From: Erodium maritimum
Taxonomy: Eukaryota; Streptophyta; Magnoliopsida; Geraniales; Geraniaceae
DNA: 64,000 bases
Assembly (NCBI GenBank): GCA_963921825.1
Contig: OY997596.1
Coordinates: 37,191,932 to 37,255,931, forward strand
Reading direction: 5' to 3'
In this document: positions 5,148 through 62,020 of the stretch, one piece after another
Numbering within the stretch: the first letter of the stretch is position 1
Layout of the letters: every line of letters begins with the position of its first letter
Position numbers and translations under genes: made by a program
Notes under the pieces: generated by a model
What the model was told of the DNA's origin: nothing
The model's input: the letters and a program-made list of their open reading frames with translations, nothing else
Databases searched by the model: none

Positions 5148-5570
5148 GTCTTGGGTGGCCATGAGAGCCCGTATTTTACTGTTGTGTCTTGGGTGGCCAT
5201 GAGTGCCCGTGGGGTTGTTGAACCCGTATCTTTACTGTTGGCGTGTCTTGGAAGGTCGTGAGTGCCTGTGGGGTTGTTGAGCCCGTGAGTTACTGTTGGT
5301 GTGTCTTGGGTGGCCGTGAGTGTCGTGGGGTTGTTGAACCCGTGAGTTACTGTTGGTGTGTCTTGGGTGGCCATGAGTGCCCGTGGGGTTGTTGAGCCCG
5401 TGAATTATGGTTGGTGTGTCTTGGGAGCCCGTGAGTGCCTGTGGGGCTGTTGAGTCCGAGTTTTACTGTTGGTGTGTCTTGGGTGGCCATGAGTGCCCGT
5501 GGGGTTGTTGAGCCCGTGAGTCACTATTGGTGTGTCTTGGGTGGCCATGAGTGCCTGTGAGTGTTGAACT
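5148..5570 (+). repeat. LTR minisatellite, period about 60 bp
   Basis: About seven units contain TGTCTTGGGTGGCCATGAG and GTGGGGTTGTTGAGCCCGTG. Units differ by scattered changes. Equivalent arrays occur in every other LTR of this family in the window (about 11385-11850, 48590-49030, 50660-51330 and 61225-61560), so the array is an ancestral part of the LTR. Confidence 0.85.
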
Positions 5571-9524: not shown

Positions 9525-12500
9525 TGTAATAACCACTCCCGGTCAACGCCAGTCAAATCTGCGAAAAACAGGAAAATTTAAAAAAATTCAGCAAACACTT
9601 ATTTAAACCTAAATTTGACTCTGAGGGTCATACCGGACGAAAGTTGACCCCGTTATCGACTAAAGTAAGCTCCGGGGAACTCAGGGCAACTTTCTGATCA
9701 ATTTGGGAAATGTTGACTTTTCGCTGGAAAAGTCAACCGAGCGACGTTTTGGTCTATTCAAGGACCGTTTTGGATCCAAAAAGCTTAGCCGTTGTCGCAG
9801 CGGTCTTAGTTGAGCTGTTTCCTTGTAGCCCGTCAAGTTTCGTAATTTCTTGGGAAAAGTGCCCGTTCGGGGCCCGAAACGTCCGATTTTCGCGAATCCG
9901 ATTGGAAAATATCTTCTTGATATTCTTCCAAAAAGGTGTGGGACCCACCTTGCCACTTGTCCAACAAGTGGTGGTGTTAGGTTTTGGGGGGAAAATGAGA
10001 GGAGGACATGAGGGGGGGGGGGGGGGGGGGTTCGGCCAACTAGCAAAAAAAGGGAAAAAATAGAAAAAAAGAAGAGAAGTGTTTAGAGAGAGAAGGAGAA
10101 GGAGAAGAAGAGATAAAAGGGAGGAAGCTAGGGTTTGGAGGCACTATTCACGTCATCTAACCCTTGGATCGTCTCAAAGTTCGAAGAATCAAACTCTCCT
10201 CGTCTTCCTCTACGGTAATCACCAAACCGATCATCGTTTTGCTAAATCTCAAATGTTAGGGTTTGGTTAAAATGAGTAGTTTAGGGTTGTTTTGAGGTTT
10301 GGGGTTTGTAGGAGAAGGTTTGGAGACGTTTGGAGGTGAAGGAGCACGTTTTCCGGTGACCGGGACCTTAGGAGGAGCTCCGGCCACCATATAGGGTGGC
10401 CGGCCACCATGTGAGGTGGCTGGCCGGAGCTAGGGCCGGCCACCACCATGGTGGGGCGGGCCCCAAAGTGCCCTAGCCACCCACGACCAAGCTTGGCCGG
10501 GTGGGGCCCACGTGCTCGGGTGAACGGGTTTTGTGTTCGGGTGGTTTAGAACGTTCCCCGGACCATTTATCCATAACCGAATCGAAATTTGGAATTAAAA
10601 TGCGAAAGTTATAATTATCGGGTTTAAAAACTTTAAACGTTAATTAATTGACTCGGAAGTCGAAAGTCGATTCTGTGAAGTACATTGGGACCCTTGAATT
10701 ATTCTAAGACCGTAGAAACGAAAACGGGAATTTTTGGAGCCCCGGAAGGGCATTTACAAAACCCGGGCAGATTCGCCATGTCGGGCGAATTGGGCCTTTA
10801 CGGGTCCTTTATCAACAATGTCGAGTAATTGGGAAGTTTGGGAGTGATCGAAATTGTCGGGGTTAAGTTTGGGCATCAAGTTTAATGATTTTCAGTTTAT
10901 TCCTGCGAGTTGTTAAGTGCCTTAAAATTGTGTTCTTTTAGATCGTGCCACGGACCGAGGCAAGGGAAAGCTGGGTGAGTGACTGAGATCACACCGGAGC
11001 TTGTTGGTTGGCTTTTGGAGAACACGCACGAGGTAGGGAAAAGTAGCCGGATCTCGGCCCTGACTAGGGAAAATTAACAGTAGAATTGCATGTGACACCG
11101 GGTGTCGTGGGTTATTTGGGTTTATCGAATATTAGAAAGGCATGATACGGGAACGTAGCGATTAGTAGAAAAGCATGTGACACTTAGTAGTGTCGTAGGA
11201 GCAAAGAACTTAGCGTTATTAGAATTACTAGAGGCATATGACCATGCCCGGAGGTTGATTGCGAACTTATCGAGATTAGGAATACTAGAGGCATATGACC
11301 ATGTCCAGAGGTTGATTGTGAACTGTTGATATTAGGACTGTTGGAGTCATTGGTTATGCCGGAGGTTGATTGTGTATTTTGTGTCTTGGGTGGCCATGAG
11401 AGCCCGTACTTTACTGTTGTGTCTTGGGTGGCCATGAGTGCTCGTGGGGTTGTTGAACCCGTGTCTTTACTGTTGGTGTGTCTTGGAAGGCCGTGAGTGG
11501 CTGTGGGGTTGTTGAGCCCGTGAGTTACTGTTGGTGTGTCTTGGAAAGCCGTGAGTTCCTGTGGGGTTGTTGAGCCCGTGAGTTACTGTTGGTGTGTCTT
11601 GGGTGGCCGTGAGTGCCGTGGGGTTGTTGACCCGTGAGTTACTGTTGGTGTGTCTTGGGTGGCCGTTAGTGCCCGTGGGGTTGTTGAGCCCGTGAGTTAT
11701 GGTTGGTGTGTCTTGGGAGGCCGTGAGTTCCTGTGGGGCTGTTGAGTCCGAGTTTTACTGTTGGTGTGTCTTGGGTGGCCATGAGTGCCCGTGGGGTTGT
11801 TGAGCCCGTGAGTTACTGTTAGTGTGTCTTGGGTGGCCATGAGTGCCTGTGAGTGTTGAACCTGTGTTGTTACTGGTTGTTGAACTTGCTTGTGATTGTG
11901 ATTGTGGTTACCTGAGGTTGGGGGCCCGCTTCATGAAACGGGGGTCCACGAGCACACGCGTCTGCATGTTCAGACGGGGGTAGGGGGCCCGCCCGACAAG
12001 AAAGGGGTCCTGACCGCGCGTGTGTGGTTTGGGATTGTGAGCATTCTTTGGCTGGCCTGACCGAGTTAGAGTCTCGGGAGGTTGCGAGCGTTCTCTGGCT
12101 GGCCTGACCGAGTTAGAGTCTCGGGAGGTTGCGAGCGTTCTCTTGCTGGCCTGACCGAGTTAGAGTCTCGGGAGGTTGCGAGCGTTCTTTGGCTGGCCTG
12201 ACCGAGTTAGAGTCTCGGGAGGTTGCGAGCGTTCTTTGGCACTGAGCAGCTGGCAGGAATGCGATCCTTTGTGATCTTGTTTGGAGTGCGATCCTTTGTG
12301 ATCTTGGTTGGTGTTGTGTATTTATCTGTCATGTCTTTGGAGGAGGTCGTCAATGGTTGTGTCGGGTTTACATCACGAGTCCGAGTGTTGAGTCTGTTGA
12401 GGAAGGTAACTGGTGTGTGTCATTTGAGTACTTGGTTTGGGGATTTGCTTTCCCGGTGTTGGGTTGGTTTTGGGTGTTACCGACATTGTCTGCTAAGTAT

Positions 12501-23044: not shown

Positions 23045-26000
23045 AACGAGTTTGTCCTCTCCTTTGACTCTGCCAGAACCCCCAAGACCTAGATGTCGCG
23101 GATGCCTTTGGCGGCGGCTCTTCTCTTTTTCTTTCTCCGATCTATTGCCTCCTATGGATTACTTTGCCTATTTTCGTCTAGAATAAATAGTATGTTCATC
23201 TATTTTGGGGTTTATGTCGGTAAATCCCCCGATTTCGGATCGATTTGATCGTCTTTTTATTTCTTTTGCAAGGTTCAAAGTCGATGCTACTATGAAACTA
23301 TTCTCCGGTGGGTTGTGGAGGCCAGAGGTATTGGTGGGTGACCATATGGGAGCTCATCTATCCCGTGGTTTGGGTAGCATCATCAACAAGATAGAGCCAT
23401 GGTTTGGAGCTTATCTATCTTGTGGTTTGGAACAATCCTGATTTTCAGGATAATGGTTATTCGAATTCGAATTTAAATCCTTACTCTCCTGCAGATACAA
23501 ATCTACCTACTTTCTTGGATAGAGATCTAGAGGCCTACTCTAGTAGAAACTCTGTTGTGAAAGACTCGGTTGAAAAGTCATTAGCACACACTCCAACTTC
23601 GGACAAGATTCGTTCCCAAAATTTGCGTGAGCCGCACGCTTCCTCTTTTTTTTTCCTTTAGCTTAAAAAAATCGTTGTGGACTTAAGAAAGGGAAGGCTC
23701 CTACGATTGTTCTCTACCAAGCCACAACTAAAAGCTACATGTTACATAAATATATAGAGTCCGGAAGGAGAGATTGGGATTACGTTAAAGAGGTGGATTA
23801 TAAGGCACTCGAATCAGGTGAATTAGTATTCGAACAATTCAATAACCTTGATCAGAACTGGAGGAGAAGATTGATTTATGTGATGATGAATCCTATGTAT
23901 TTGAGGATCTCTGCGATGTTGAGGAATTGGATTCGTTGAGTCCAATTCCACCTTTGCTTCTCACAAATTAAGATATGATATTCCTCTCAGGGAATGTGAG
24001 AGGAACCAACTCCTCCCATAAGAGGAGGAGTATTAGGTTTGTTGTACTAAAGGAAAGACCTGACTGTGTTTTTTTTGCAAGAAACTAAAATAGATTTGAT
24101 CTCTCAGACCTTCTTGAGTGAATGTGGCTTTTCTAGGGAATGAGAATTTGTTTTTGCTCCTACAATTGGTGCTTCTAGGGTCTGTTAATTGTCTAGCAAA
24201 AGAGTATATTCACTAAAATTTTGTGTACCATTATGCATAACATCATCATTTGGTTCGGTCAGGTCAGTTGTTCTCATACTTCGATTTCTTTATTGGACAT
24301 ATATGGTTCCTCTAACATTTCAGAGAGAAAAGAGTTATGGGATACTATCAGAAGCTATGCTGAGCAGTTGGGGGACAGTGTATTATTTTTTGGAGACTTC
24401 AATTCAGTTTTGTATTCAAAAGAAAGGAGAAACTATATGTTTTCTAAGGTAAATAGGTTGAATTTTCAAGAATTCATTCTTGATTTAGGCCTTGTTGATA
24501 TGCTCCTAGAAGGGACCAAGTTTACATGGTACGAGACATGTTTTAAAGCATCCATAACAATTCGCTTATTGGTTTATCCTAACTTTCTATCAACATATGA
24601 TGATCTCTCCCAACATGGTTTGGGTAGATACTTGTCTGATCATAGGCCATTGTTCCTAGAGTCGAAATATATTAATTGGGGGGGCGAAACCTTTCAAGTT
24701 TTTGAACATATGCTTAGAACACACGACTTGTAAACTCATTCTCAATATTCTTTGGAATTCTTATGCATGTACATGTTCAGTGAGTTATAGAATATGGTTC
24801 AAATTTAAATGCATGAGGTTTGTTTTGAAGAAGTGGACTGAAGAGATTTTTGGTCTTGTAGATCATGATATAGTCATGTTAAGCTTGGATATTGAGAAGA
24901 GTGATGCTATCCTATATGAGAGAGATCTTACTGATGATGTCTCTAGATCCTTACTGAAAGTGGAGCTGATTAATCAACAGAAGGTCTTGGCAAGAATTTG
25001 GTGTCAAAATTCAAGATCTCGGTGGTTTAAGAAAGGGGATACTTGTTCAAAATAATTTCAGAGGGTAGCCAATTACAAAGGCTCATGTAATAGGCTCGCA
25101 TTATTTAATTAGGGATGGGGATAATATTTTATCTGATCCGGTGGATATCAAAGAACACCCTGCTTCTCATTTCGCGGCTAGATTCTCGGAGCCTGTAGCT
25201 ATAAGATTAGGCTTACCTCCTCTGCCTTTTCAGCGTTTGACATAGCTAGATAAAAATGCTTTGGAATCTGATTTCACTATGAAGGAAATAAGACAGTCAG
25301 TTGTTGATTGTGGAGGTGAGAAATCTCCAGTACCTAACGGGCATGTAATGTACTAGCACCATGTACATAAAATCGTATATGTATTGAATCGGCAGTTGGA
25401 GAACCTGAAAAGGAGTCAGTGTCAGAATTCGACAAAACCCTAGCATTTTTTTGGGTGAAAACGATCATCCAGGGTCATTTGGAGGGTCAAATTTGCACTT
25501 TTAGATTCTGGGTATTTATTTCCTTTTTGTTTTTGGGTTTTCTGATTTCCTTTATTCGTATTAAGACTTTAGGATTACTTTCCTTATGGTTTAGGGTTTA
25601 GTTTTAGGGTTTAGGACGTTGGTGTTTAGGGTTTATAAACACACGAAGCTTTGATTATAAATCTGTTTTTTAGAATTATAAACATTGTACCAGCAATTGT
25701 GTGTGTATTGTACTATCACCTGTGTGTGTATTGTACCAGTACCATGCGTGCGCTATCGTCACCACGCACGCGTGCGAAACGACATGTGTCGCCTTCATGT
25801 GAGTTTGTAGTTTGCACAATAATGAACAAACCACCCTTATTGTGCAAATTGTGAACTCACAAGAAGACTACACGTGTAATTTTCGCGCGCGCGTAATGCT
25901 GGTAGCGCGCGTGTGGTGTTGGTAGCGTGCACATGGTATTGATAGTGTGCGTGCGTAGTGCTGGTACCCCTCACAAACAGGTGCTGGTACAACACACACG

Positions 26001-26426: not shown

Positions 26427-26845
26427 GGGTTATGTTCATCTCACTACCCCAACTATGTGGTTTTTTTTCATCTCACTACCCTAACTATTTTTTGTGGCAC
26501 CTCACTACCCTAGAATGCATTTTTTTTCAATTTCATACCCGCCGACAATTTGCCATCCATTTTTGGATGAAAACACTTAAAAAGTCCATAACAATCAAAT
26601 TTTCAAAAACATGCCATTGGTTTTCAAAATTTCTTTAAAAAATCAGTTTTTAATGTCACAAAAATGCATTCTAGGGTAGTAAGGTGCCACAAAAAATGAA
26701 TTATAGGGTAGTGAGGTGCCACAAAAAATAGTTAGGGTATGAAAGTGAAAAAAGACATTCTAGGGTAGTGAGGTGCCACAAAAAATAGTTAGGGTAGTGA
26801 GATGAAAAAAACCACATAATTAGAGTAGTGAGATGAAAATATCCC
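26427..26845. mobile_element. Mutator-like MITE, copy 1, with 9-bp target duplication
   Basis: The ends are inverted repeats over more than 90 bases, each containing TTCATCTCACTACCCTAACT and GTGGCACCTCACTACCCTAG. Flanking 9-mers TAATTTGAA (26418-26426) and TAATTTTAA (26846-26854) match at eight of nine positions. Termini begin GGGTTATGTTC or GGGATATTTTC. No coding capacity. Confidence 0.8.
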
Positions 26846-26854
26846 TAATTTTAA

Positions 26855-27168
26855 ATGTATACCCATCTCCGTCCCATATTTCTTTTGCTTTTCTGGGAAG
26901 ACAATGATGATTTAATACTTACATTGTTTTGTATTTTGGTATCTACTAACGCTACAAGTGATGCTTTGAATTAGGGTTTCTTTGAATCCATTGAATATGA
27001 TACTTTGTCTATTTTTTTTTCGTATGTGGCTTACACTGACATTCCTTTGCCCGTCTATGTGAGGTTGATGCTTTTCATATTGTGCCCATGGTTATTCTAT
27101 TGCGTGCTTTTTTTCCATGGTATTTGACTGTTTCTTTTCTGATTCTGATATAATGCATGTAAAGAAGA
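26855..27168. other. AT-rich spacer
   Basis: No gene or element recognised between the first and second Mutator-like MITEs. Confidence 0.6.
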
Positions 27169-27177
27169 TTAAAATTA

Positions 27178-29569
27178 GGGTAATTTTTTTTGATAGGCGA
27201 AAAATTTATTAGGCAAACGTTCTACAAAATGGTAAAAACGATGCAAGAAAAACAATCCTTCAAATGACCTTTTCCCCAAACCGATACAAGCAAAAAGCAA
27301 ACTAAAAAACAAAACAGAACAGGCAAGCAAACTAAAAGAGCACCGCCCTCCTTGCCTACTTCCTATCTGGATTCAAGCAGAGAAATCGGTTAGAAACCGC
27401 AACAGGAGTTGAACTTCCTGAAGACATTTCCGGAATAACCTCAATCTCGCTATCCTCGACGTCCTCCTCAACCTCAACCTGCTGTGGAGGTTCCAGACCT
27501 GAGAAGTTAGCAACATCCCTTTTCACAAATCGCTTCCTAAAGTTCCACGTTCCATCTTTACTTTGTTTAGCAATATCAATAGTGAAGCTTCCCGCTAGAC
27601 CCCCTTTATCAGCCGAAGTTTTGGCTCGTGTCTGGTAAAAAATAGTTGGAGGAACTGTCTTTTTTGGATGACCACGTTTCTTTGGAACCTCTATGGGAAA
27701 ACTTTTATTACTCAGAAGAATGTCTTTCCACGGACTTCCGTCTTGATCCACAAAGGTTCCACCGTCAACTACCACCGCAGGTATTTGCGTACCCGACATG
27801 CCAAGTTGGACTTGAGACGTATTAACCACGGGCCCATCCTTAGTCGAGCTTAAACCCTCCAGCCCAGTCGAAGATAAGCCCTCACCTACAGACAAATCTG
27901 TATCGATGCGTTTGAAAACGTTAAAAGGACTCGGGTCCTTTGGAGCACCAGAAAGTGGGCCACCAATTGACCCAGTACTTACACCTACTGCTGGATCAGG
28001 CCTAAGTTGAACCTGTCCTGCTTCAAACGGCCCAATTGTACATGGCCCGTTTACTACACCATCCAACTTCGTCCCAGTACTTGGGTTCTGATAACCGGGC
28101 ATGCGCAGCGACGAAGAAGGAATTGTCCCTGTAATCTCGCCTGATAACTTCGTCCCATTCAAAAACAAATCCGCTGCGAACGATTTTCCTTGATTAGCGA
28201 TCCCCTGAATCGCGGGATTGACATCTGCAACTGGAGGTAGCATCGCAGATTGAGGGCGAGGAAACTCACCGGACGCCTGTGCCAGCAACGGATCCTCTGT
28301 CGGCCGACGAGGCATAGTGTCTGCAACCTCACAATTCACCAGTTGCAACTCCAGGGACTCCGACCCAGCGTGTACAGACCCCTCATTCCGATCAAAAACC
28401 TTACTCGTTTTCACAACACCTACACTCTGTTTTACGTGCAGAATTTCTCGCCACCGGTGACATACCTCATGGACTTTCCTGGACGCGCAAGAGATAAAAA
28501 TAAGGAATAACCATTAAACTTGAAACCATTGTAAGTTTCAATGGCTTGACGAGCCGATGTCGGGGACGCAAACTCTGCAAAACCGAAAATCCGTCATTTC
28601 CTATTAGGCTTCTTAATCACAGATACAACTTTTACCTCCACGAACGACATCAATGTGCTACGAACCCGCTCAACAGTGATTCCCCAGGATAGATTGTACA
28701 AAAAAATCGAGCATCCATCCCCAATCGTATCAGCTTCAACGAGTTCTCCTGACTGTACCTGCGTATTCTGACCGGCGTCGGAGGGAGTACGTCCAAACCT
28801 GTGCTCCTTCTCCACAGCTTCAGATTGTTTTTGATCTCCACCAGCATTTGAAACAGAGTCGAGACGCAAAACCTGGGCGTCCTTGCTCTGATTCGATGCG
28901 TGCAAACCAGAGAGCTTCACCTTAACCTTGGCCGGACGGTTCGCTGGTTGCTTCACGTCCACCTTGCCAAAAGCAGTTCTCTTCTTCCCCACCTTGCTAA
29001 CCGCAACTGTGCCGGCAACAATGGAGCGGTACTCCTTGTATAAGGTGAGCAGCTTTGTGCAGAACGGGAAAAAGGGCAACAGATCACCTTCAAACTCGCC
29101 GGAAAAATTCCGGCCAGCCGAGCAGTGAGAGCGTTTCATGTTGCTCACCTCAATATCCTAACTATTAATTTTTTTCACCTCAATACCCTAACTATTTTTA
29201 GTGGCACCTCAATACCTTATAATGCTAATTTTTTTTCACCTCAATACCCTAACTATTTTTTGTGGCACCTTACTACCCTAAAATGCATTTTTGTGGCACC
29301 TCACTACCCTATAATGCATTTTTATGACATTAAAAACTGATTTTCTAAAGAAAATTTGAAAACCAATAGCATGGTTTTAAAATTTTGATTGTTAGTGAGT
29401 GGTATTATGGACTTTTTAAGTGTTTTCATCCAAAAATGGATGACAAATTGACGACGGGTATCAAAGTGAAAAAAAAAATGCATTCTAGGATATTGAGGTG
29501 CCACTAAAAATAGTTAGGGTATTAAGGTGAAAAAAATTAATAGTTAAGGTATTGAGGTGAAAATTACCC
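27178..29569. mobile_element. Mutator-like MITE, copy 2, split by an RRM retroposon
   Basis: The outer flanks carry an identical 9-bp duplication, TTAAAATTA, at 27169-27177 and 29570-29578. The left MITE end is reduced to GGGTAATTTT at 27178-27187. The RRM retroposon follows, and the MITE resumes near 29143 with CTCACCTCAATATCC and runs to AAAATTACCC at 29569. Without the insert the MITE is about 440 bp, close to copy 1 in size and layout. The target duplication shows that the two pieces are one insertion. Confidence 0.8.
27183..29142 (-). mobile_element. RRM-encoding, ORF2-less retroposon, copy 1
   Basis: Read on the minus strand, an ATG at 29139 lies within about five bases of the 5' junction. 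The product resembles RRM-type LINE ORF1 proteins: a conserved N-terminus (AGRNFS, PFFPFCTKLL, YKEYRSI), an RRM with IFLYNLSWG and FGFAEFAS, a GHPKK basic patch with VPPTIFYQTRAKTSADKG, and a C-terminus ending NRFLCLNPDRK at 27356. One in-frame TGA falls just before the RRM's FGFAEF stretch, and a frame change follows before 28414. After the stop there is only about 165 bases of 3' UTR, then AATAAATTTTTCGCCTATC and an A run. No endonuclease or reverse transcriptase is present. Confidence 0.75.
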
Positions 29570-29578
29570 TTAAAATTA

Positions 29579-30165
29579 TGATATGGGTTTTATACTCTAG
29601 GGTAGCTCATGCATGCTTCAATTACTTGCAACTCGACCAAGAGGTTTAATGTTCGCTCTTAGGGCCTTTTTTTTTCTTTTCTTTTTTTTGGAGTCAATAT
29701 GGGCTTACTTCAACATTTTCTTAGAATGTAAATGTTGTTGGCAAAAATAAATAAGATGATAGATCAACATGAGGATGATTGTCAGCATTGGACTTGAATA
29801 TCTGGGAAAACAAGGAAATTAAGGTTTGAATCTAATTGAATCTTGTCCTAAAATGGCTTAGCCCTCATTCTTCTCTCCTACAATTTTCTCCGTAAACAAC
29901 CATGCATAGACAATATTAATTTTTGTTTTATAATTATCTTTATTCCTCGTATTATTCAACTTGGTCATGTTTTTTGTAATTCTGTTTTTTTTATTCGAAG
30001 GCATATTATATTGCCAAATGAGGTAAAGCATCCTTTTTTTTTGCTTGATTTGACATTGATCATCTAACTATTTATGATATTGTTGTTGTATAATGAAGAA
30101 TAGGATCATTTCATGGTAGAGTTTGTAACATTAAACTGCTAATATTAACTCAGAAATACTGATTA
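29579..30165. other. AT-rich intergenic DNA
   Basis: No gene or element was recognised. It separates two oppositely oriented copies of the RRM retroposon. Confidence 0.6.
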
Positions 30166-30179
30166 TAAAAAACAAGTTT

Positions 30180-32120
30180 GTGAAGCCATGAAGCAGAAAC
30201 GCTCTCTAAAGGCTGGCCGGATCTTTTCTGCCGGCGACAGTGAAAATGTTGTACCTTTCTTCTCCTTCTGCTCAAATCTCTTGTCCCTGTACCGTGAGTA
30301 TCGATCTATATGCTGCCCTAGTGTTAGATCAATCAAAGAAACCAAGGAGAGACTTCGTGGAGGCTTTACAACACAACCATCTCACGCTGCGACCATTATC
30401 AGTCCGATGATCCCTGTCAAACAGAGCACTGAAGCTGCTCCAGCCACAACGAAGGGGAAGCTTTTGGATGAGGCTGTGACTGCTCCTCTCGATGCCTCTG
30501 TCCACAAGGAGGACGGAGATGTGGTTTCGGACGGAATTACAGACCGACGACGACGTACCGAAACCCAGATTGTGGATAGTGTAACGGAGGTGTATGTCTG
30601 AAACCTACCTTATCCTTTCTCGGAAGAGTCTTTCAAAGCCATGTTTCTCCCGTTCGGCGACATCGATTCCCTATCATTGTTGTCGAGACCAAATAAGAAA
30701 GGCTTCTTCTTCGGTTTCATTTGCTTTTCATCGCATGTTGCTGCTGCTCAGGCGATAGACACGTTGAATGGCTTCAAGCTAAATGGACACGTTCTTTTCG
30801 TAGCTTTCTCGCGGTGCTTTATACGAACTCCGGCGACTGGTTTAGGTGGTGAGGCAAAACAGAGCACTTGCTCTATTTTACGTCCTGAACCGGAAACTTG
30901 CCCTAGAGATTCTCGGCCTTCCGGTGAGGGACAGGTGCACCCTCGTGAGATCACCAGCACCCTGACAGCCTTACCTCTGCCGGCGATCACTCCTCCGCCG
31001 AGTTCTCAGGACGCCGTTGACCTGCAACACTCTGTTTCAGACGCCCCCGTTTCCGTCGTTGACTCCGTGGTTCAAGGGATGGTTTTTTCGAAAGAGAATC
31101 GTGCTTCGATTTCCAATCGCGTGGATTCGGGATTGACTCCACCGTTGATCACGGCATCTTCAGAGAAAATCTTGGACGCGATAATGATGCACGATACTGT
31201 CCCCTTGATTCAAGGGAAGACGAATCCAAAAGTGATCCCCATCTCGAATGGGTTTCCTTTTTTGACTCGATCTTCTCTGGTATCGGGAGGGATAACACAG
31301 GCAATCATGGTGGCTTCAGTTTCGTCTCCGAGAACGACACTGTTTCAAGACTTTGGGCTTGCGGATGGGCTTGGAGCTGGTGGGTCTGATCCAAATAATG
31401 GCATGGGTGTTGACCAGATCGAGGTGGGCCTTTACCCAGATGGAGTTGGGCCGGTTAGGGGTGGTTCAGATGTAAGCCCAATCACAAATACTGGACTGGT
31501 TCGTGAGGACCCAAGATTGGCTACCATCTTCAATCTTATTTAAGACCCGCTAGCTGTGGGATCGGTGGAAAATTCTCGGACTGTTGTACCGTTTCTGGAA
31601 ATCGGGCTGCAAGGAAGTCCATGGAAGGAAGCCTTGGAAAAACCGGCTGAACCAAAGAAACGTGGACATCCAAATAAGGGTCAGTCGAAGGTGATTGTTC
31701 CACCAACCGTAGTCTATCAGACAAGAGCTAGGACCTCTGCTGATAAAGGGGAAAAAATGGGACGCTTTTTTGTAGACGTTGCCAAAAAAGACTGTTCGGG
31801 TAAGTGGAGGTACAACTCGAAAGTTGGTCATAGACCTATTGACCTTTGTGCTTTGGCTCTTGAGAAGGACGCTGAGGATAGGAAGAACAAGGAGTTTGTG
31901 GAACCGACTTCGGAACTTGCTTTATCCCCTGTTCCGATTTCTAACCGTTTCACCTGTTTGAATCCGGATAGAAAGTAGGCATGACCTTTTTTGTCTTGTA
32001 TTTTATTTTTCGCTCTTTGGAGCTGGTAATGGTCTGAGGAAAGGATCTTTTTGGATCTTTTCTTGCTTCGTTCTATAGACTTATAGAACATTTGCTTAAT
32101 AAAAATTTTAGCCTATAAAA
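30180..32120 (+). mobile_element. RRM-encoding, ORF2-less retroposon, copy 2, with target duplication
   Basis: The unit is flanked by AAACAAGTTT, at about 30170-30179 before it and within 32120-32131 after the poly(A). It starts about eight bases before the ATG at 30188 and ends with AATAAAAATTTTAGCCTATA and an A tract. The 3' UTR after the stop at 31978 is about 140 bases. The whole unit is 1.9 kb and holds one reading region with no endonuclease or reverse transcriptase. Direct duplication and poly(A) show that it moved as a retroposon in this form. Confidence 0.8.
30188..31978 (+). pseudogene. RRM-domain ORF1-like protein of retroposon copy 2
   Basis: One frame runs 596 codons with two in-frame stops, TGA at 30599-30601 and TAA at 31541-31543, and no frameshift. 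The N-terminus has AGRIFSAG, VVPFFSFCSNLLSLYREYRSI and a basic stretch. The RRM follows: the RNP2-like strand VYV-stop-NLPYPF contains the TGA, and the RNP1-like strand is KKGFFFGFICF near residue 172. A long Ser/Pro/Thr-rich middle leads to GHPNKG, VPPTVVYQTRARTSADKG and a terminal NRFTCLNPDRK. Copy 1 shares the same blocks. RRM-bearing ORF1 proteins are known from plant LINEs such as the beet BNR family. It is probably an RNA-binding protein of the element. This copy is inactive unless the stops are read through. Confidence 0.75.
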
Positions 32121-32131
32121 AAAACAAGTTT

Positions 32132-32764
32132 TACCAGCCGTATAACCTGATCAACCCAACTATATATGTCCTTTTTCTTTGGTGATCGGTGACATTCTGT
32201 TAGCAGTGACGATGATTAAGAACTTAGAAGGAACCCGGAACCCAACAAATTCCCATTTCATAGGTGTGGAATATGAAAATGCGGTCGCCACCGGCGGTGC
32301 AGATTTAAATAAGGTCAGTGGAAAAGATCCGGGAAGAAGTTGGTTCCGATTTTGCGGGTCGAAATATACGACTAAAACTAGACCTGGTATTCACACTTAT
32401 CTGGTCTGCTCTGTTTTCAACTGTTGATCATAATGTTATGAGTTCCAGTAGAAAATACTACAAGTAGGAGGAGAGAGGCAGATAGATGAGGAGTGTTCTT
32501 CAAACTATAGACCCGAGCTTTCAAAATCAGTGATCGTGGCCATTCATTTAGTCAACCTTGTCGGAGAAAGTTCGTCTGCGCCGATGGACGCAAAAAAGGT
32601 AAAACTCTCGCTTCTTATCCTCTTGTCTTTTGAATAACGTGTTTGTATCTTGTATGATATAGGGTTTTTGAAATCTGATTTAGCCTTTAAGCTATGGATG
32701 CAACAATCGCTCATTTAGGAATATGATTTAGGTCTTTAATAATTTGTAACATAATTAAGATCCA
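32132..32764. other. Intergenic DNA with a possible orphan first exon
   Basis: Mostly unrecognised. Around 32470-32620 there is a GA-rich leader, then ATGGACGCAAAAAAG followed by GTAAAA, which looks like a short first exon with a donor site. I cannot find exons that continue it, so no gene is called. Confidence 0.4.
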
Positions 32765-32773
32765 TTGATTTTG

Positions 32774-32989
32774 GGGTAAATTTCATCTCACTACCCTAAG
32801 TTAATGAAGGGTAATATTGTCATTTTACTATTTTTAAGTTTTGAAAATTCAATAGCATGCTTTTGAAAATTTGGTTGTTAGTGAGGGATATTATAGACTT
32901 TTTAGATATATTGGATGGAAATTTGATGGAAAACTAATGGCGGGTAGGAAAGTGACAAAAATTCAATTCTAGGGTAGTGGAATTTACCC
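32774..32989. mobile_element. Mutator-like MITE, copy 3, with perfect 9-bp target duplication
   Basis: Flanking 9-mers are identical: TTGATTTTG at 32765-32773 and 32990-32998. The ends are GGGTAAATTTCATCTCACTA and, inverted, GGGTAAATTCCACTACCCT. The interior resembles copies 1 and 2 (a CAATAGCATGCTTTTGAAAA-type block), but the element is only 216 bp. Confidence 0.82.
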
Positions 32990-33319
32990 TTGATTTTGTA
33001 AATGTTGAAAATCAGTAATTTGTAACATAACTGATTAAAGTCTTTTTTAAAACCAGATAACAATTACTGATTTATGTTTTTTTTAAAGTCTGATTCAACC
33101 TTTAGGGTTTGGATCCGTTTTTTAATTTCCAAAATCTAATTTATCTTTAAGGATCGATTGATTTTTGTTTCCAAAATATGATCTAGATGTGACTGAATTT
33201 AGTCATAGTCGACTGGATTTTAACTTTTGTTCATCTGTTATTGATTGTATGTTATATTTTACTCTGAAATATAGTTGGTAATCTGAATTTTAGTTACAGT
33301 TAACTGAATTTAGAGTGAA

Positions 33320-33345
33320 CTAGGAGGGTGCACCGCGCGTTGCGC
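33320..33345 (-). mobile_element. Helitron-type 3' terminus
   Basis: Read on the minus strand, the hairpin GCACCGCGCAACGCGCGGTGC is followed by ACCCTC and then CTAG, with T next. A GC hairpin about ten bases before a terminal CTRR, inserted before T, is the hallmark of a Helitron 3' end. The body would extend to higher coordinates into the AT-rich 33.3-38.5 kb region. I could not find a matching 5' TC end, so the length is unknown, and no Rep/helicase was seen. Confidence 0.5.
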
Positions 33346-33632
33346 GGTGCTTGGTGTGAAAGCTCATCAGATCATTCCGTATATTAGTCATACGCGTAAA
33401 ATCAAGGGTTTGATTCTCTTTTAAGTGTGTTAGATTGCTTGATTTTACTTGAAAATAATCCTTCAGAAATAAAGAGATCAAACAATCAACAAAGGTAATA
33501 CATGACAAAGTTGAGGAAAAATGAATATGAGAATCACGAGATAAATCACTTATTCCAAAAAAAAACTCCAATCCTCGAATAATCTATAAAAATGAATCTG
33601 ACCTAATTAAACTGAATCAGAAGAGCAAAGCC

Positions 33633-33914
33633 TGGGTAGTAAGGATGAGGATTATCCTAAACCGACAGGAAAAGCTTTAATCCCTGTCCCGGTTTCCAAC
33701 CGATTTATTTGCTTGGACCCAGGTAGGAAATAAGTATGGCGGGCGTTCTCTTGTTGTTTTCTTTTCTGCTTGGGTTTTTTTGTTCTCTGTTTAGCTATGT
33801 GTAACTATTATGGTCTGAGGAAAAAATGTCCTTTTTGCGTATCCTTTTCTTGCATTGTTCTATTGACTTGTAGAACGCTTGCTTAATAAAATCTTCGCTT
33901 ATCTAAAAAAAAAC
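33633..33914 (+). mobile_element. RRM retroposon family, copy 3, 5'-truncated
   Basis: It keeps only the C-terminal end of the ORF (ALIPVPVSNRFICL, then DPGRK and a stop at about 33733) and the 3' UTR, ending TTGCTTAATAAAATCTTCGC and an A tract. CAAAGCC flanks it at 33626-33632 and 33915-33921, a likely short target duplication. The UTR matches copy 2 clearly, including a TATGGTCTGAGGAAA block. This shows a third independent insertion of the same 3' end. Confidence 0.7.
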
Positions 33915-33921
33915 CAAAGCC

Positions 33922-36900
33922 AAATTCCTTATAAAATTTATCCATTGTGTTCTGTACAATCAGAAGTAGCATATCAAGCAAAACCCAATAATGCCCGATC
34001 CCAAAATGAGATCAAACCATCCCTATTTGATCATCAACCCCATATTGCTAATTAAGCCTAGTTGCTATAACAAACAAACAATTATTTCAAACCCATAAAA
34101 CCAAAAAAAAGATATGAATCAACAACAAAATTGCTCAAATCAAAAGGTTTTATTTTTAAAATAGGCAAAAACATTCTATTTTATCGTCTCGGATCATAGT
34201 GTACCACCTACCTAGGCCGAAATTATTATTATTATTATTCTCCATAGCGTATCAAAAGAAAAATCTATTGTCGAATGATTTAAGAACTTTATGATGATTG
34301 GACAAATGGGAGAAATCTAATCGAAAACATGACAATTATTCTCGCACAAGATATAGCTCCAAGACGTTGAGTATCCTATATAGAAAGTAAGAGAAAAGGA
34401 TTGAGTTCCTATATTTTCTCTGAAACAAACCATAACCTAGATTTTATAATAGTACTAAAAAGAAGTATATCGAAACAAAAGAATGCAGATTATAATAAAC
34501 TAAATTGACTCTAAAATTTTAACTTTTATGCTCAGTCTATATTCCATTACTTAGTTCAAAAGTTCTATTGTATAGGTATACTATTAAGTTTAATTCCTCT
34601 AAGATAATTTACTTCGAATAACATCATTACTTAGCCTCACTTGCATTTAGTTCCTTACAACCAAGCCAAAAGTAACTAAATTTCCCAATCATGGGACAAC
34701 TTATATTGTTATTATATAAATTCAATACTACATCAGATCTTTCTCTTACATTATAACAACCACTTATCATTAAACTGATTCTCAAACATATAGCGTGAAT
34801 AACATTTGTTGTTTCTGTCTACAGTTAGCTAGAAAAGAGAGTCTCAATCTTAAGAGATACAAATGAAGGCGATTGGTACATCAAATACAAGCAGTAGCAT
34901 AAATCAGATGAAGGCAGTAACATAAATCATGATTTCTCCATTCCCAAACATTATTATTACCAGAAAATTTCAAGTTTTAATTTACGGACTATCACCAGTA
35001 CAACCTACATTTTGAAACATACTTCGTGTAATCATATACGTGAAAACATTAACATGCAACTCTATATATATACAGTATTACCTTCGAGAGCTAAACCACG
35101 TTGAGAAGATGGCCATCAATTAATTGCTCAGAGAGAAAAAGCTACAAAAACATATCATCTGACCTTTCGGAAATTTCTAACCCATTATGGACTATAGCAT
35201 ATAGAAACCTACTCTTATCCAATAAAAAAACCATTCACATGCACCATATCAAATTGAAACTATACCCACCAAATAGAAAACGGGCTTAAAACCGACTATA
35301 AAAATAACATTGAAACAGCATCGATACATTAAACTCAATAACAGGCAGACAAAGCACAAGATAACCAAACAAAACTGAATTTGAGCAAATTATGCATCCA
35401 CACCAAGGATTACCAAAGATCGTTTCCACTTTCAAACAAATCGAGACAACTGCATTATAACTCCAATTAACCTCATGCGAAATATAGAATTAGATACAAT
35501 GATTTCATAAATAAATCAGGGTTATGAAGTTATCATACCCGACTTCTACAAAATTATTAATGCCTGAATAGGCACATGAGGCGTACAATTACTCAAACTC
35601 ATATAACTACACTTGTATGAATCTGCAAGTCAACCAATGCATAAATGTTTGATATTGAGAAAAGCGCGTATTATAAGCACCAAACATTATTTATAACAGG
35701 AGACAAAATTAGGTTGAACCATTACACTACAACTTCAATTCCATATCATGGACAATAATTCTCAAATGGCCCAATATCCTAGTAATTCCCGATACAAATA
35801 TTATTGGAAAAATCTAACCATGTCGAGCATGAAAACTTATTATGTCAAGTTTGGCAATGTCCCCAATTATGATTACCCCAATCCTGTAAAAAAACAGTCG
35901 AATCAATTTAGTATCCTCGCCTATTTTTAAATATCACAGCTCATACCAGCAAAAGCTCAATCATGAATAGAAGATTAAAAGGTTGTGATACCAGCGCTCT
36001 CATGAGAACAATACAAACATAGACGGAACAATTCCAAGGTTTCCATCTAGCCATAATAACCCTTAAAACCAATATAATCCCTTTTCAAGAAACTACCACA
36101 TCTGCCTATCTTTTTTATGATGATAACCAACACATCTAGGCAAAAATTTACAACAACCAAAAGAACACATCATGTCCTTTATCACTCCACCACCTTCCTC
36201 TGTGAAATAATTTCATAAACTTAAACAATTTCATTCGGTTAAAATTAGTCAGTTTATATAACTTAATCCCTCCATGTCTACTATGTACATTCAATACCTG
36301 ACATCTATTTATCATGTCTCCAAAAACAAATCAGTGACTATAGTTGAAGCCATTACATTATCAGTCACTTTTAATATATCATTTCTTCTCACGTACAATA
36401 TTAAAATATATCACTATATAAGAGGGCATAATTTACTTGATGAAAGAAAATCATCAAGAAGCTTGAGTATTTTAGCAAGCCAACAAGTACAATCATTTCA
36501 AGTTCTGTTGCTGTAGGAGAAGTTACTCAACTGAAATCCACAATGTTGAGAGCACCGTTAAGCATTTCTCCTAAAAGTCCTGGTAATCTGGTATGTTGTT
36601 GTTTAAAGGAAAATATGCGAAATAATTAGGAATTAGCGAATGGGTTACCTCGGAAAATTGGCACATTATCTTCAGCTCCTCATCTGTCAAGGAACTACAA
36701 CCAGCAAAAAGAACTCACCCACAACATCATCTGTTGTTGTCTGAAAATAAACAGGCACACAACATCAATACTTAAATCAGAATCATTTAGTCTCTAGAAA
36801 CATGAAATCATATTTGACTAACACTGACACAAAAAGCAAGCTTATTTTGATTAAGCTAAAATAAAACTGCTCACTTCATCATCCATTATCTTCTGAATCA

Positions 36901-48388: not shown

Positions 48389-49807
48389 GACCTGTCACAC
48401 CAATCCACGCACGCGCTGCCAGGACTCCTTTCCTCACGGGCGGCCCCCCTACCCCGTCTGAACATGCAGACGCGTGCGATCACAGGACCCCCGTTATTAT
48501 GAAGCGGGCCCCCAACCTCAGGTAACCACAATCACAATCATAAACAAAATTCAACAAACAGCAACAACACCGGTTTGACACTCCACATGCACTCATGGCC
48601 ACCCAAGACACCAACGGTAAAACACGGGTTCAACGACCCCACGGGCACTCAAGACCACCCAAAACACCAATGGTAGAACACGGGTTCAACAACCCCACGG
48701 GCACTCAAGGTCACCCAAAACACCAACGGTAGAACACGGGTTCTACAACCCCACGGGCACTCATGGCCACTCAAGACACCAAAGTAAAGACACGTGTTCA
48801 ACAACCCCACGGGCACTCATGGCCACCCAAGACACCAACAGTAAAGACACAGGCTCTCATGGCCACCCAAGACACAGTAGTAAAAATACGGGCTCTCATG
48901 GCCACCCAAGACACGAACATTAAAGTACGGGCTCTCATGGCCACCCAAGACACAGAAGTAAAAATACGGGCTCTCATGGCCACCCAAGACACGAACATTA
49001 AAGTACAGGCTCTCATGGCCACCCCAGACACAAATTAAACAATCAACCTCCGGGCATAACCAAATGCCTCCAGTAAATCTAATATTGAAAGTTCACTGCT
49101 CCTACGACACTACTAAGTGTCACATGTATTTCTATTGTTCGATACGCTCCCGTATCATACGACACCACACGGTGTCGCCTGCCTTTCTAATATTCGATAA
49201 ACTTACTTAACCCACGACACCCCGGTGTCACATGCATTTCTACTGTTAACTTTCCCTAAACAGGGCCGAGATCCGGCTACTTTTCCCTACCTCGTATGCT
49301 TTCTCCAAAAGCTCACAATCAAGCTCCGGCGTGATCCCGATCACTCGCCTATTTTTCCCTTTCCTCTGTCTACGACACGATCTAATAAGAACACAATTTT
49401 AAATACTTTTAAGCTTGCAAGCATAAACTGAATTTTAATAAACTTGACGCCCAAAAGTAACCCCGACAATGTCGATCACTCCCAAACTTCCCAATTACTC
49501 GACATTGTCGATAATGGACTCGGAAAAGCCCGATTCGCCCGACATGGCGAATCTGCCTGGGTTTTGAAAACGCCCTTCCGGGGCTCCGAAAATTCCCGTT
49601 TTCGTTTCTACGGTCTTAGAATAATTCAAGGGTTCCTAGGCACTCGACGAAATCAAATTCCGACTTCCGAGTAATTTAATTCGCGTTTAAAGTTTCTAAA
49701 CCCGTCAATTACAACTTTCACAATTTAATTCCAAATTTCGATCCGGGTGTGGATTAATTACTTGGGGAACGTTCTAAACCACCCGAACACGAAACCCGAA
49801 CACCCGA

Positions 49808-52800
49808 TGTCACGCCCCAATTTCAGTAAACCGAACTCGGGACGCGAACATTTAAAAATCATAAAAAATTTGAAACCTGTTTTGAATAAACACTTTATAA
49901 TCTCCATTTAGTTAATCAAAATAATATTTACAACTCAAAATAAGTCCTAACAAGTAGACAAAACAAGGTATCCGTCACTAGACTCAAAAGTAAAACCCAG
50001 AATCCCGCTCCTAGCTCTTCAAGCTTCAGAAGCTCACCTAGTCCAACCTGCGACCGGTACCTGTAGGAAAAGCAGCTAGGGGTGAGCGTTCGCTCACCAC
50101 CACGGATAACAGACTGACTACGGCATACTTAGCAGACAATGCCGGTAACACCAAAACCAAACCCAACACCGGGAAAAACCAACCCAAACTCAAGTACTCA
50201 ACTGACACACAACCTATTACTTTCCTCAACAGACTCAACACTCGGACTTGTGATGTAAACCCGACACAACGATCGACGACCTCCTCCAAAGACCCGACAG
50301 AAACTACTCAACACCAAGCAAGATCACAAGGGATCGCACACCAAACAAGATCACAAAGGATCGCATACCAGCTGCTCAGTAACCTCCCTCACGCCCTTTA
50401 CCGATCTCAGTCAGGTCAGGCGGTCGACCTGTCGCAGTTCCTCGACACAAAGTCGGCTCAGGCTGTCGACCTATCACACTCACAACCCCTGAACCACACA
50501 CGCGCGGCCAGGACCCCTTTACTGACGGGCGGGCCCCCCACCCCGTCTGAACATGTAGACGCATGTGCTCGAGGACCCCCGTTTCATCAAGCGGGCCCAC
50601 AACCTCAGGTAACCACAATCACAATCACAAACAAAGTTCAACAAACAGCAACAACACAAATTCAGCACTCCACAGGCACTCATGGCCACCCAAGACACCA
50701 ACCATAAAACACGGACTCAACAACCCCACAAGCACTCACGGCCTCCCAAGATACACCAACAGTAACTCACGGGCTCAACAACCCCACGGCCACTCAAAAC
50801 CACCAACAGTAACTCACAGGCTCAACAACCCCACGGGCACTCACGGCCTCTCAAAACCACCAACAGTAACTCACGGGCTCAACAACCCCACGGGCACTCA
50901 CGGCCTCCCAAGACACACCAATAGTAACTCACGGGCTCAACAACCCCACAGGCACTCACGGCCTCCCAAGACACACCAATAGCAAAGATACGGGTTCAAC
51001 AACCCCACGGGCACTCACGGCCTCCCAAGACACACCGACAATAAAGACACGGGTTCAACAACCCCACGGGCACTCATGGCCACCCAAGACACCAACAATA
51101 AAGTAACACGGGTTCAACAACCCAACGGCACTCATGGCCACCCAAGACACAAACAATAAAGTAACACGGGTTCAACATCCCAACGGGCACTCATGGCCAC
51201 CCAAGACACAACCAATAAAGTAACACGGGTTCAAGAACCCCACGGGCACTCATGGCCACCCAAGACACAACAATAAAGTAACACGGGTTCAACAACCCCA
51301 CGGGCACTCATGGCCACCCAAGACACAACAATAAAGTACAATCAACCTCCGGGCATGATAATGCCTCCAGCAGTTCTAATATCAACAATTTCACAATCAA
51401 CCTCCGGGCATGGTCATATGCCTCCAGTAGTTCTATTATCGATAAGTTCTCTGCTCCTACGACACTACTAAGTGTCACATGCTTTTCTAATATTCGCTAC
51501 GTTCCCGTATCATGCCTTTCTAATATTCGATAAACCTACTTAACCCACGACACCCCGGTGTCACATGCAATTCTACTGTTAACTTTCCCTAGTCAGGGCC
51601 GAGATCCGGCTACTTTTCCCTACATCGTATGCTTTCTCCAAAAGCGCACAATTAAGCTCCGGCGTGATCTCGGTAACTCGCCTAGCTTTCCCTTTCCTCG
51701 GTCTGCAGCACGATATAACAAGAACACAAATTTATTTAAAAGGTTACGACGGTCTCGATTTAAGTTCAAAAGTGGTCTTTTAGACTCGAGCGGGCTAAAA
51801 GCGGGATTACGGCGAATCGGGTTCAAGCACCCGGGCACCGAAACCGGTGCAGGTTTCCAGAGGCACAGTCCAAATGCACAGATCTCGAGGCATGGGTTTC
51901 ATGGCACGCTTCCCGATGTACGATTTTTGTGGCATGCTTCCCGAGACACAAGGTTCGGCAATCCGCTTTGATCCCATTCAAGGTCCGATTAACAGTCCAG
52001 TTTAGCCAAAGTTCCAGATTTTATTCACCAGTCCCAAAACCATTTTAAATCGAACCCGCTTTCTAATCTAATTTGACTTACTTCAAAATTCTTTCCTTTT
52101 AATCAAATCTGATTTTGTTTAAATCTCATTTCCTTTTAACAAAATTATTTTCTTTAAATTTCTGATTCACTTTCTTCTTCACAACGTGCAGATCCCCAAA
52201 AATCTTTCTGTTTTCCCCAAAGCCCAGATCCAAAATTGCTCGAGAATAAAAAGGGAGAAGAAGGGGGGTTTTGATCAATAAAACGACCGGCCAACGGAGA
52301 AAACGTCGCCGGCCGAGGACTCACGGTGGTAGCTCACCGTAGGGAAGGGATGGTGGTGGCGGCGCGGTGGTTGCGCGAGGATCCGGAGTCGTGCGGGGCG
52401 GGGACGGCGTCTCGTGAACCCGAGCTCCGTCTCCCACCGTTGGTCGGTTTGATACGGTCACCGGATGGGACGTGGTGGCTGGGATCGAGCATCGAAGAAG
52501 AGAGGGGGAAGTCGGTAGCAAGGAACGGAGATTACGGGCTCGGGCTCGGGACTGAGTGAGTGGGGGGTGGAGAGGGAGAAACGGAGAGTGGGAGGCGACG
52601 TGGCCAGAGCTGGAGAGAGGGTGGCCGGAGAGGATGAAAATGGGAGAGAGAGAGGACTCGGGAGAGGGACTGCGCGATCTGAAGGAGGCAGAAGAAGATG
52701 GGGATGAAAACCCTAATTTCAGGCTTTTAAAGCCAAGTCACAGCTTAGGCTGGAGCCATAAATGGGCCTCGGGTAAAGAACGGGCTGCACGACCCAAAGC

Positions 52801-59499: not shown

Positions 59500-62020
59500 T
59501 GTAAGAACCACTCCCGGTCAACGCTAGTCAAACCGGCGAAAAACAGAAAAATTTAAAATTTTGGGACAGACAATTAAATAAACCTAAATTTGACCCCGAG
59601 GGTCATACCGGACTTAAGTTGACCCCGGTATAGACCAAAGTGAGTTCTGGGGGACTCAGGGCAACTTTCTGACCAATTTGGGAAAGGTTGACATTTTGCT
59701 AGAAAAGTCAACCGAGCGACGTTTTGGTCCGTTCGAGGTCCGTTTTGGATCCAAAAAGCATAGGCGTCATTACAGCGGTCTTAGTTGAGCCGTTTTCTTG
59801 TAGCCCGTGAAGTTTCGTAATTTCTTGGAAAATGGGCCCGTTCGGGGCCCGAGACGGCCGAATTTCGCGAATCTGTCTGAAAAATATTTAACAGATATTT
59901 TCCAAAAAGGGTGGGACCCACTTGCCACTTGTCACACAAGTGGTGGTGTTAGGTGATTCTGAACCAAAACAAAAGCAAGACCACATAGTGTGGTCGGCCA
60001 CACTTAGAGAAAAAGAGAAAAAAAAAAAGAGAAAAGAAGAGAGAGAAAGAAGAGAGAAGGAGGAGAGAAAAAGAGAAGGAAAGCTTAGGGTTTAAGTTTT
60101 TCCCGACGATCCAACCGACGGATCGTCTCAACGATCGAATAATCAAGCTCCCGTCATCATTCCCTACGGTAAGAACCTATTCGATTTTCGTTTCGATATG
60201 TTTAAAAGTTAGGGTTTGGGTTATAACGAGTAGACTATAGATGATTTGAGGTGTGGGGTTCGTTGGAGGCGTTTTAGAGCGAAAAATGATCGGTTTCCGG
60301 TGACCGGAGGCTCGGGGGAGCTCCGTCCACCGTGGGTGCTGGCTGCCGGAGTTGGGGGTGGCTGGCCGGAGCTAGGGCTGGCCACCATGGTGGTGAACCG
60401 GCCCAAAACCGGCCCAGCCACCCACGGGTCTTAATGGCCGGATGGGGCCCACGTGCTCGGGTCTCGGGTTTTCGTGTTCGGGTGGTTTAGGACGATCCCC
60501 AAGTCGTTAATCCACACCCGGAACGATATTTGGAATTGAATTGTAAAAGTTGGAAATGACGGGTTTAGAAACTTTAAACGCGAATTAAATTGCTCGGAAG
60601 TCGGAAATTGATTTCGTCGATTGTATTGGAACCCTTGAATTATTCTAAGATAGTGGAAACGAAGACGGGAATTTTCGGAGCCCCGGAAGGGCGTTTTCCA
60701 ATCCCGGGTAGATTCGCCGAGCCGGGCGAATTGGGCCTTTCTGGGCCCATTATTGACAATGTCGAATAATTGGGAACTTTGGGAGTGATCGACATTGTCG
60801 GGGTGGCATTTGTGCGTCGAGTTTATTAAAATTCATCTTTGCCTGCAAACTTAAAAAGTGTTTTAATTGTGTTCTTGATTAGATCGTGCCACAGACCGAG
60901 GAAAGGGAAAGTTAGGCGAGTGATCGTGAGCACGCGGAGCTTGGTTGTGAACTTTTGGGAAAGCGTACGAGGTAGGGAAAAGTTAGGGATCTCGGCCCTG
61001 ATTAGGGAAAGTTAACAATAGAAATGCATGTGACACTTGGGTGTCGTGGGATAGGTAAGTTTATCGAATAATAGAAAGGCAGGCGACACCGGGTGGTGTC
61101 GTATGATGCGTGAACGTATCGAACAATAGAAAGGCATGTGACACTTAGTAGTGTCGTAGGATAAGTAAACTTATCGAACATTAGAGATACTGGAGGCATT
61201 TGGTTGTGCCCGGAGGTTGATTGAATTGTTTGTGTGTCTTGGGTGGCCATGAGTGCACGTGGGGAGTTGAACCCGTGTTTTACTATTTGTGTGTCTTGGG
61301 TGGCCATGAGTGCCCGTGGGGGGTTGAACCCGTGTTTTACTATTTGTGTTTGTGGGTGGCCATGAGTGCCCGTGGGGGGGTTGAACCCGTGTTTTACTAT
61401 ATGTGTGTCGTGGGTGGCCATGAGTGCCCGTGGGGAGTTGAACCCGTGTTTTTACTGTTTGTGTGTCGTAGGTGGCCATGTGTGCCTTTGGGGTGTTGAA
61501 CCCGTGTGTCACTATTGTGTGTGTCGTGGGCGGCCATGTGTGTCTGTGGGGTGTTAAACCTGTGTTGTCGCTTGTTGTTGAACTTTGGTTGTGATTGTGG
61601 TTGTCTGTGGTTGGGGGCCCGCCTGACAATAAAGGGGTCATATGGTCGCGCGTGGGGGGGTTGGCTAGCCTTCCGACTTAGATCGGTAAAGTTGTGCATT
61701 CTTCGGCGATGGAGGGCTGCTCCCCTTCCGACTAGCTATCGGAGAAGTATTGCGGAATATATCGCTAATAGGTCGACCGCCTGGCCCGACAGGGATCGGG
61801 GGAAGTTGCGTGGGGCAGGCTCGAGCCCAGCCGGTTAGCAACCGGCACTGAGCAGCTGGAGTGCGATCCTTTGTGATCTTGTTTGGTGTGCGATCCTTCG
61901 TGATCTTGGGTGTTGCGTGGTTATCCTTTGTGTCTTGGGTTGAGGTCGTAACCGCTATGTCGGGTCTACATTACGTGTCCGGGTGTTGAGTTGGTTGGGG
62001 AAAGTAACAGATCGTGTGTC
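59500..62020 (+). mobile_element. Gypsy LTR, same family as 3545-12816, incomplete
   Basis: It starts TGTAAGAACCACTCCCGG, like the outer solo LTR in reverse. It then follows the family order: leader, GGGGCCCACGTGCTCGGG block, CGACATTGTCGGGGT, the 60-bp array at about 61225-61560, and GTGCGATCCTTTGTGATCTT near 61860. Recognisable similarity stops near 62020, before the usual LTR end and palindrome. No 3' target duplication can be assigned. Confidence 0.75.

Follow-up and report, generated by a model that had tools for sequence, protein, structure and literature searches.

Retroposons that encode nothing but an ORF1 pose a question: why keep an RNA-binding protein without the enzyme that copies the element? 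The question arises in a 64-kb window (the whole stretch of DNA analyzed, C9:37191932-37255931) of a 763-Mb plant genome in 40 contigs. In this window, a first-pass annotation had described two RRM-bearing copies and proposed that they belong to a family spreading as ORF1 plus tail. The positions and landmarks given for both copies are borne out by our analysis, and a third, shorter copy lies downstream of them. The features are as follows.

30164..30179, + strand: copy 2, 5′ copy of the target-site duplication (TSD), 15 of 16 bases as in 32116-32131
30180..30187, + strand: copy 2, private 5′ leader of 8 nt, absent from the other 5′ ends read
30188..31978, + strand: copy 2, ORF1 with two in-frame stops; open over 593 codons in the relative L016
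30590..30796, + strand: copy 2, RRM domain (Pfam RRM_1 from 30602 on, E 4.8e-12); clade-level dN/dS 0.06-0.21
31655..31678, + strand: copy 2, motif KKRGHPNK (KKRGRPKK in L016), which we take to be AT-hook-like; no Pfam match
31943..31975, + strand: copy 2, C-terminal NRFTCLNPDRK; dN/dS of the C-terminal region 0.20-0.26
31979..32115, + strand: copy 2, 3′ UTR, with the best-conserved part of the element at its end
32037..32064, + strand: copy 2, first 3′ UTR hairpin, predicted by folding
32070..32089, + strand: copy 2, terminal hairpin GUUCUAUA-gacu-UAUAGAAC, then TTTGCTTAATAAA; predicted by folding, with compensatory changes between clades
32116..32131, + strand: copy 2, A-tail and 3′ copy of the TSD, by sequence comparison
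27183..29142, − strand: copy 1, a different clade of the same family with a broken RRM, by sequence comparison
33683..33912, + strand: third copy, 5′-truncated (C-terminus and 3′ UTR, end PVPVSNRFICLDPGRK), found by tail scan

Copy 2 is flanked by a direct duplication, as had been noted, and the duplication proves to be longer than described: TATAAAAAACAAGTTT (30164-30179) and TAAAAAAAACAAGTTT (32116-32131) are equal at 15 of 16 positions. Its ORF1 is damaged by in-frame stops at 30599-30601 and 31541-31543. Copy 1 is split inside the RRM, and of the two only copy 2 has a Pfam RRM_1 match. A script comparison of the flanks of copy 1 found no TSD; minisatellites with units of ~30 bp (CACCTCAATACCCTAACTATTTTT-like) lie on both sides of this copy, at 26440-26810 and 29145-29563. 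The 3′ UTRs are indeed short, with about 138 nt after the stop in copy 2 and 162 nt in copy 1. The third copy ends at about 33906-33912 and has a possible short TSD, CAAAGCC.

The window holds further repetitive sequence. A LINE endonuclease fragment is located ~2.5 kb from copy 1 (24221-24733, + strand; Exo_endo_phos_2, E 0.0012, below the Pfam cut-off), and no match to it is observed among the family loci compared. Tandem arrays with 56-59-bp units recur at 5183-5559, 11418-11851, 48589-48850, 50670-51338, and 61229-61566, where they give rise to long repetitive reading frames. A search of Rfam gave no match at positions 26500-34300.

Copies of the element are found throughout the genome. 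Copy 2 as query yields at least 53 matches (best 40 of 2141 candidates scored), which excludes chance, and its first 151 nt alone yield 40 (best 40 of 46 candidates scored). With the copy-1 protein, 120 matches are obtained (best 115 of 3157 candidates scored); among these, 19 places, counted by eye, show an open frame of 500 codons or more, leaving out C2:65937483, which has a stop in its second piece. These homology counts are lower bounds, since the best candidates were scored, whereas pattern searches are exhaustive. The 34-nt tail pattern of the copy-2 type occurs, at up to three mismatches, at 478 places genome-wide, of which only the fetched copies have an established ORF1; the reversed control occurs at none. 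In one region, C1:150975322-151003468, six of the tails listed fall within 28 kb, three of them exactly 1539 bp apart, possibly a tandem array of elements.

The copies fall into several divergent clades, down to about 73% identity, and two of them are intact. L016, a relative of copy 2, has an ORF of 593 codons (Pfam RRM_1, E 3.6e-13), and L033, a relative of copy 1, has 599 codons from the start codon within an open frame of 647 codons (RRM_1, E 1.8e-14). The unit consists of a TSD, a short leader, one ORF, a 3′ UTR of 140-210 nt, and an A-tail. These copies very probably constitute a dispersed, non-autonomous non-LTR retroposon family that encodes only an ORF1-like protein with an RRM, an AT-hook-like motif, and a conserved C-terminus.

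The junction between ORF1 and the 3′ UTR is central to this assignment. An ORF2 located there would block alignments across the ORF1 stop; the alignments cross it, and no ORF2 is present where they do. The stop is crossed into the 3′ UTR by 37 of the 53 copy-2 matches (37 distinct places; 40 candidates scored), the other 16 being 5′ or internal pieces and two copies cut ahead of the stop. Likewise, 42 of the 48 L033 matches cross it, and the remaining six are internal pieces. Starting from the 3′ UTR, ORF1 sequence lies directly 5′ of the stop in 39 of the 40 best matches, in L037 and L040 by only about 22 nt, and the remaining match (L042) is truncated within the UTR. All nine long-frame copies read over the next 251 nt, out of the 19 places, show the stop, a 3′ UTR of 148-213 nt, the hairpin, the tail, and an A-run. 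These four sets overlap and are not independent. The endonuclease and reverse transcriptase ORF2 of an autonomous plant L1-clade LINE is absent from the ORF1-bearing copies examined; probes from gypsy reverse transcriptases are of the wrong class and uninformative on a LINE ORF2.

The first-pass annotation had reasoned that an ORF2 ahead of the 3′ UTR in most genomic copies would reduce the local copies to chance deletions, and we observe such an arrangement at no ORF1-bearing copy examined. The family could still represent one half, the ORF1 part, of a regular plant LINE with two ORFs, its masters having gone unsampled or ORF2 having been deleted locally. RRM-bearing ORF1 proteins are present in plant LINEs, each of our searches scored the best candidates only, and one LINE ORF2, described below, that ends in a homologous tail makes a two-ORF ancestor plausible. 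Against this, ORF1 directly meets the 3′ UTR wherever an ORF1-bearing junction could be seen, across several clades and in all nine long-frame copies. Independent chance deletions at one point are not credible, and one ancient loss, with the element spreading afterwards, would be just what is claimed for the family. We regard this explanation as highly improbable.

The ends of the copies support movement as a short unit. Of 34 copies compared by script, 10 have clear TSDs, 13-19 nt long and spaced as expected, and two more copies (L020 and L024) were recognized by eye. All six fetched end pairs of L033 relatives have TSDs, the pair L070/L071 belonging to a 3′-truncated copy without a tail. In total, 18 copies have different TSDs at independent sites, all with an A-tail except L070/L071; weaker or ambiguous candidates (e.g., L021, L025, L037, and L038) are left out of this count. 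The length from TSD to tail in the ten script-found copies is 1.8-2.0 kb, except in L023 (2.4 kb). The other copies are 5′-truncated, rearranged, located within host repeats, or have an unclear TSD. L033, although intact, also arose by retroinsertion: its TSD measures 13 bp. Thus, the proposal that copy 2 moved as ORF1 plus tail is supported by its own TSD, and it extends to many copies of the same ORF-to-3′-end structure, the full-length ones with TSDs of their own.

The landmarks of ORF1 are the RRM, the motif KKRGRPKK, presumably of AT-hook type, and the C-terminal NRFxCLNPDRK. A GHPxK patch reported earlier is present, but it is a variant of the AT-hook-like motif, which reads KKRGRPKKGHSK in L016. 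Pfam finds no zinc knuckle in L016 or L033. An ORF encoding DUF4283 together with a CCHC zinc knuckle, which we take to be the common ORF1 type of plant LINEs, is located near an RRM-type copy at L023:6478-7437, so that both ORF1 types exist in this genome.

Pairwise dN/dS ranges from 0.42 to 0.70 (Nei-Gojobori, ten copies, 45 pairs). At the level of clades, for which only codons where sister copies agree are used, a choice that favors conserved codons, dN/dS is 0.06-0.21 in the RRM, 0.20-0.26 in the C-terminus, 0.30-0.50 in the N-terminus, and 0.71-1.06 in the linker. Constraint on the coding sequence, anticipated for a real family, is therefore found in the RRM and the C-terminus and does not extend to the linker. 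Six terminal branches give a pooled dN/dS of 0.64 (singly 0.43 to 1.08); the new stop scored in this analysis for the intact L016 stems from a codon with multiple changes. This pattern is that of a protein kept during the spread of the family, followed by decay in single copies. It is also expected for retrocopies of a constrained host gene, and alone it is not decisive.

The copies might accordingly derive, as processed retrocopies, from a single host RRM gene or a small number of them; they would be dead on arrival, and the constraint would be that of the host genes. Such an origin is in line with copies that contain stops and with a constraint that is weaker on terminal branches than in comparisons between clades. 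Furthermore, the family RRM is similar to RRMs in host RNA-binding proteins, for example PABP and PUF60. It is at odds with the intact L033, which carries the marks of retroinsertion, and with both ends of the element, to which we now turn.

The 3′ end is the best-conserved part of the element. Averaged over pairs of copies, identity reaches 0.93 in the last alignment window (36 pairs), compared with 0.72-0.83 across most of the ORF and up to 0.86-0.90 in the C-terminal windows. Folding each sequence separately predicts the terminal hairpin in 42 of 42 segments located in 44 sequences; the tail was missed in L027 and L043, and in L043 the hairpin is lost. Compensatory changes are observed between clades: the outer pair changes from U-A to C-G, an inner pair occurs as C-G, U-G, or U-A, and another inner pair as U-A or C-G (sequences are counted here, not independent events). 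Fold z-scores of the whole UTR in six sequences are −2.5, −3.0, −4.7, +1.65, −1.6, and −2.3, the positive value being that of copy 1, whose UTR folds no better than its shuffles. Applied to the full 3′ UTR, RNAalifold gave weak covariation; misalignment of the copy-1 clade hid the terminal hairpin from it, and per-sequence folding was used in its place. Ohshima (PMC3747384) treats such a terminal hairpin, in one plant L1 lineage, as a sign of stringent 3′ recognition.

A scan for the tail in the window and in those of the loci L013-L045 that span at least 2 kb revealed a second tail in L038, a locus at C1:37284500-37287200, on the minus strand. This tail is preceded by the damaged C-terminus of a LINE ORF2 and not by ORF1 (L038:1803-2698, minus strand). 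Matches to zf-RVT occur in two frames of the fragment (E 1.7e-4 and 0.017, neither reaching the Pfam cut-off), and one of these frames matches the ORF2 of the L013 LINE (E 4e-9), whose reverse transcriptase is recognized by Pfam. The last 120 nt of the 3′ UTR of the L038 LINE are 77% identical to L081 and 72-77% identical to several other copies, including copy 1, and its tail carries the terminal hairpin. The shared tail is not seen in two other LINEs in the flanks (L013 and L027). A chance fusion of ORF2 and tail in L038 is conceivable; the missing A-run at the junction between them weighs against it. Judged by its sequence, the L038 LINE, one damaged copy known over its last ~0.7 kb only, is a candidate for the helper, and the best one we have.

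We infer mobilization in trans by a LINE because the copies have TSDs and an A-tail and because one LINE ends in a homologous tail. The family had been called a parasite of LINEs. This description gains from a LINE ORF2 fragment that ends in the homologous tail; mobilization by that particular LINE we only infer.

At the 5′ end, the distance from TSD to start codon is 3-45 nt, with one copy at 121 nt. The corrected list comprises 44 five-prime ends (L044 is missing). The leaders are unalike: mean identity at positions −1 to −10 is 0.272, versus 0.269 after shuffling (35 copies; the anchor is off in L027, L049, and L050). If leaders were inherited, sister copies should share the bases adjoining the start codon. 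A search with L033 extended by its own upstream 36 nt gives seven further matches that include the start of the ORF; every one begins at query position 37 or 38, which is the start codon, and the closest of them is 90% identical. No common leader is found in the TSD-bounded pairs L013/L014 (dS 0.093) and L033/L066 (90% identity). In L016/L019 and L017/L018 (dS 0.080 and 0.113), compared over raw upstream sequence, this sequence is not common either.

The source of the leaders was sought in several places. Three of them (45, 34, and 33 nt) have no second genomic place at up to three mismatches, and the 121-nt leader has no other match in the genome. In the flanks of their own loci, the longest exact matches of eight leaders are within the range of those in other loci. 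Splicing onto the start codon was rejected, as only 14 of 44 leaders end in G. A purine occupies −3 in 33 of 44 copies (one-sided p 0.0028, 12 positions looked at), a weak signal given that T at −11 is also unusual. This T is present in 27 of 44 copies, in leaders otherwise unalike.

These observations bear on the retrocopy explanation, as the 5′ UTR of a host gene would be passed on to its copies, and the closest pairs, two bounded by TSDs and two compared as raw upstream sequence, have no leader in common. In addition, the clades have kept a common 3′ UTR with its hairpin, to which the tail of a LINE is homologous. We consider an origin of the copies from host RRM genes unlikely and retain a retroposon family with its own ORF1.

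How the 5′ end is renewed is a separate question, posed by private leaders that reach only to the start codon. Either renewal takes place at integration, by filler DNA or template switching with RNA from near the start codon, or even the closest copies are many generations apart. Tentatively, and with more doubt than confidence, we consider a lineage without a 5′ UTR or promoter of its own: the inherited part would begin at the start codon, each copy would acquire an unrelated leader, and persistence would depend on a cis-acting RRM protein and on a 3′ hairpin shared with the helper. If this were true, the leader would be replaced at every, or nearly every, jump, a way for retroposons to replicate that is absent from the literature that we could search.

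An RNA-binding protein kept by selection in an element without a copying enzyme suggests that the family spreads by borrowing the enzyme of another element. In the mechanism that we propose, the mRNA of the element would be translated, and the ORF1 protein would preferentially bind the mRNA that made it. A LINE enzyme acting in trans may then recognize the shared 3′ hairpin and A-tail and copy the element RNA where the target DNA is nicked. The RRM protein would be maintained by selection in cis despite the missing reverse transcriptase. With its many clades, its measurable constraint on the RRM and the C-terminus, and a hairpin that a LINE also carries, the plant family opens cis-preference and helper specificity to tests in a host other than mammals and flies.

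Plant L1-clade LINEs of the BNR type carry an RRM ORF1. The family resembles them in this respect and in its TSDs and A-tails, and differs from them in having no endonuclease or reverse transcriptase, an AT-hook-like motif, and no Pfam zinc knuckle (L016 and L033). Stringent-type plant LINE/SINE pairs (PMC3747384) have in common with the family a compensated terminal 3′ hairpin and a LINE with the same tail (here in one copy); the family differs in being protein-coding and not a SINE. In Blumeria, copies of a LINE ORF1 had a different outcome and gave rise to effector genes (PMC4641428). We found no plant ORF1-only family in the open-access full-text literature; subscription papers were outside this scope, and we make no claim to priority.

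The closest parallels are found in animals. HAL1 (half-L1) of mammals is described in PMC5753468 as a non-autonomous LINE derivative that encodes ORF1p only and has several independent origins. The plant family shares with HAL1 the presence of ORF1, the absence of ORF2, multiple copies, TSDs, and an A-tail; it differs in its host, its ORF1 with RRM and AT-hook-like motif, its conserved 3′ hairpin, and its private 5′ leaders. We do not file it as a HAL1 because the ORF1 of its presumed parent LINE was not seen, L038 comprising the last 0.7 kb only. HeT-A of Drosophila telomeres is a non-LTR element without pol, for which gag conservation suggests negative selection and a helper is presumed (PMC5537684). 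The plant family likewise lacks pol, conserves an ORF1-type protein, and has a presumed helper. In contrast to HeT-A, which is confined to telomeres and has promoter-bearing UTRs, it is dispersed inside chromosomes with TSDs and has a very short 5′ leader. By analogy, the family would work like mammalian HAL1 or Drosophila HeT-A; what is new here is a terminal 3′ hairpin preserved by compensatory changes, a helper candidate in the form of one damaged LINE ORF2 that ends in a homologous tail, and the private leaders.
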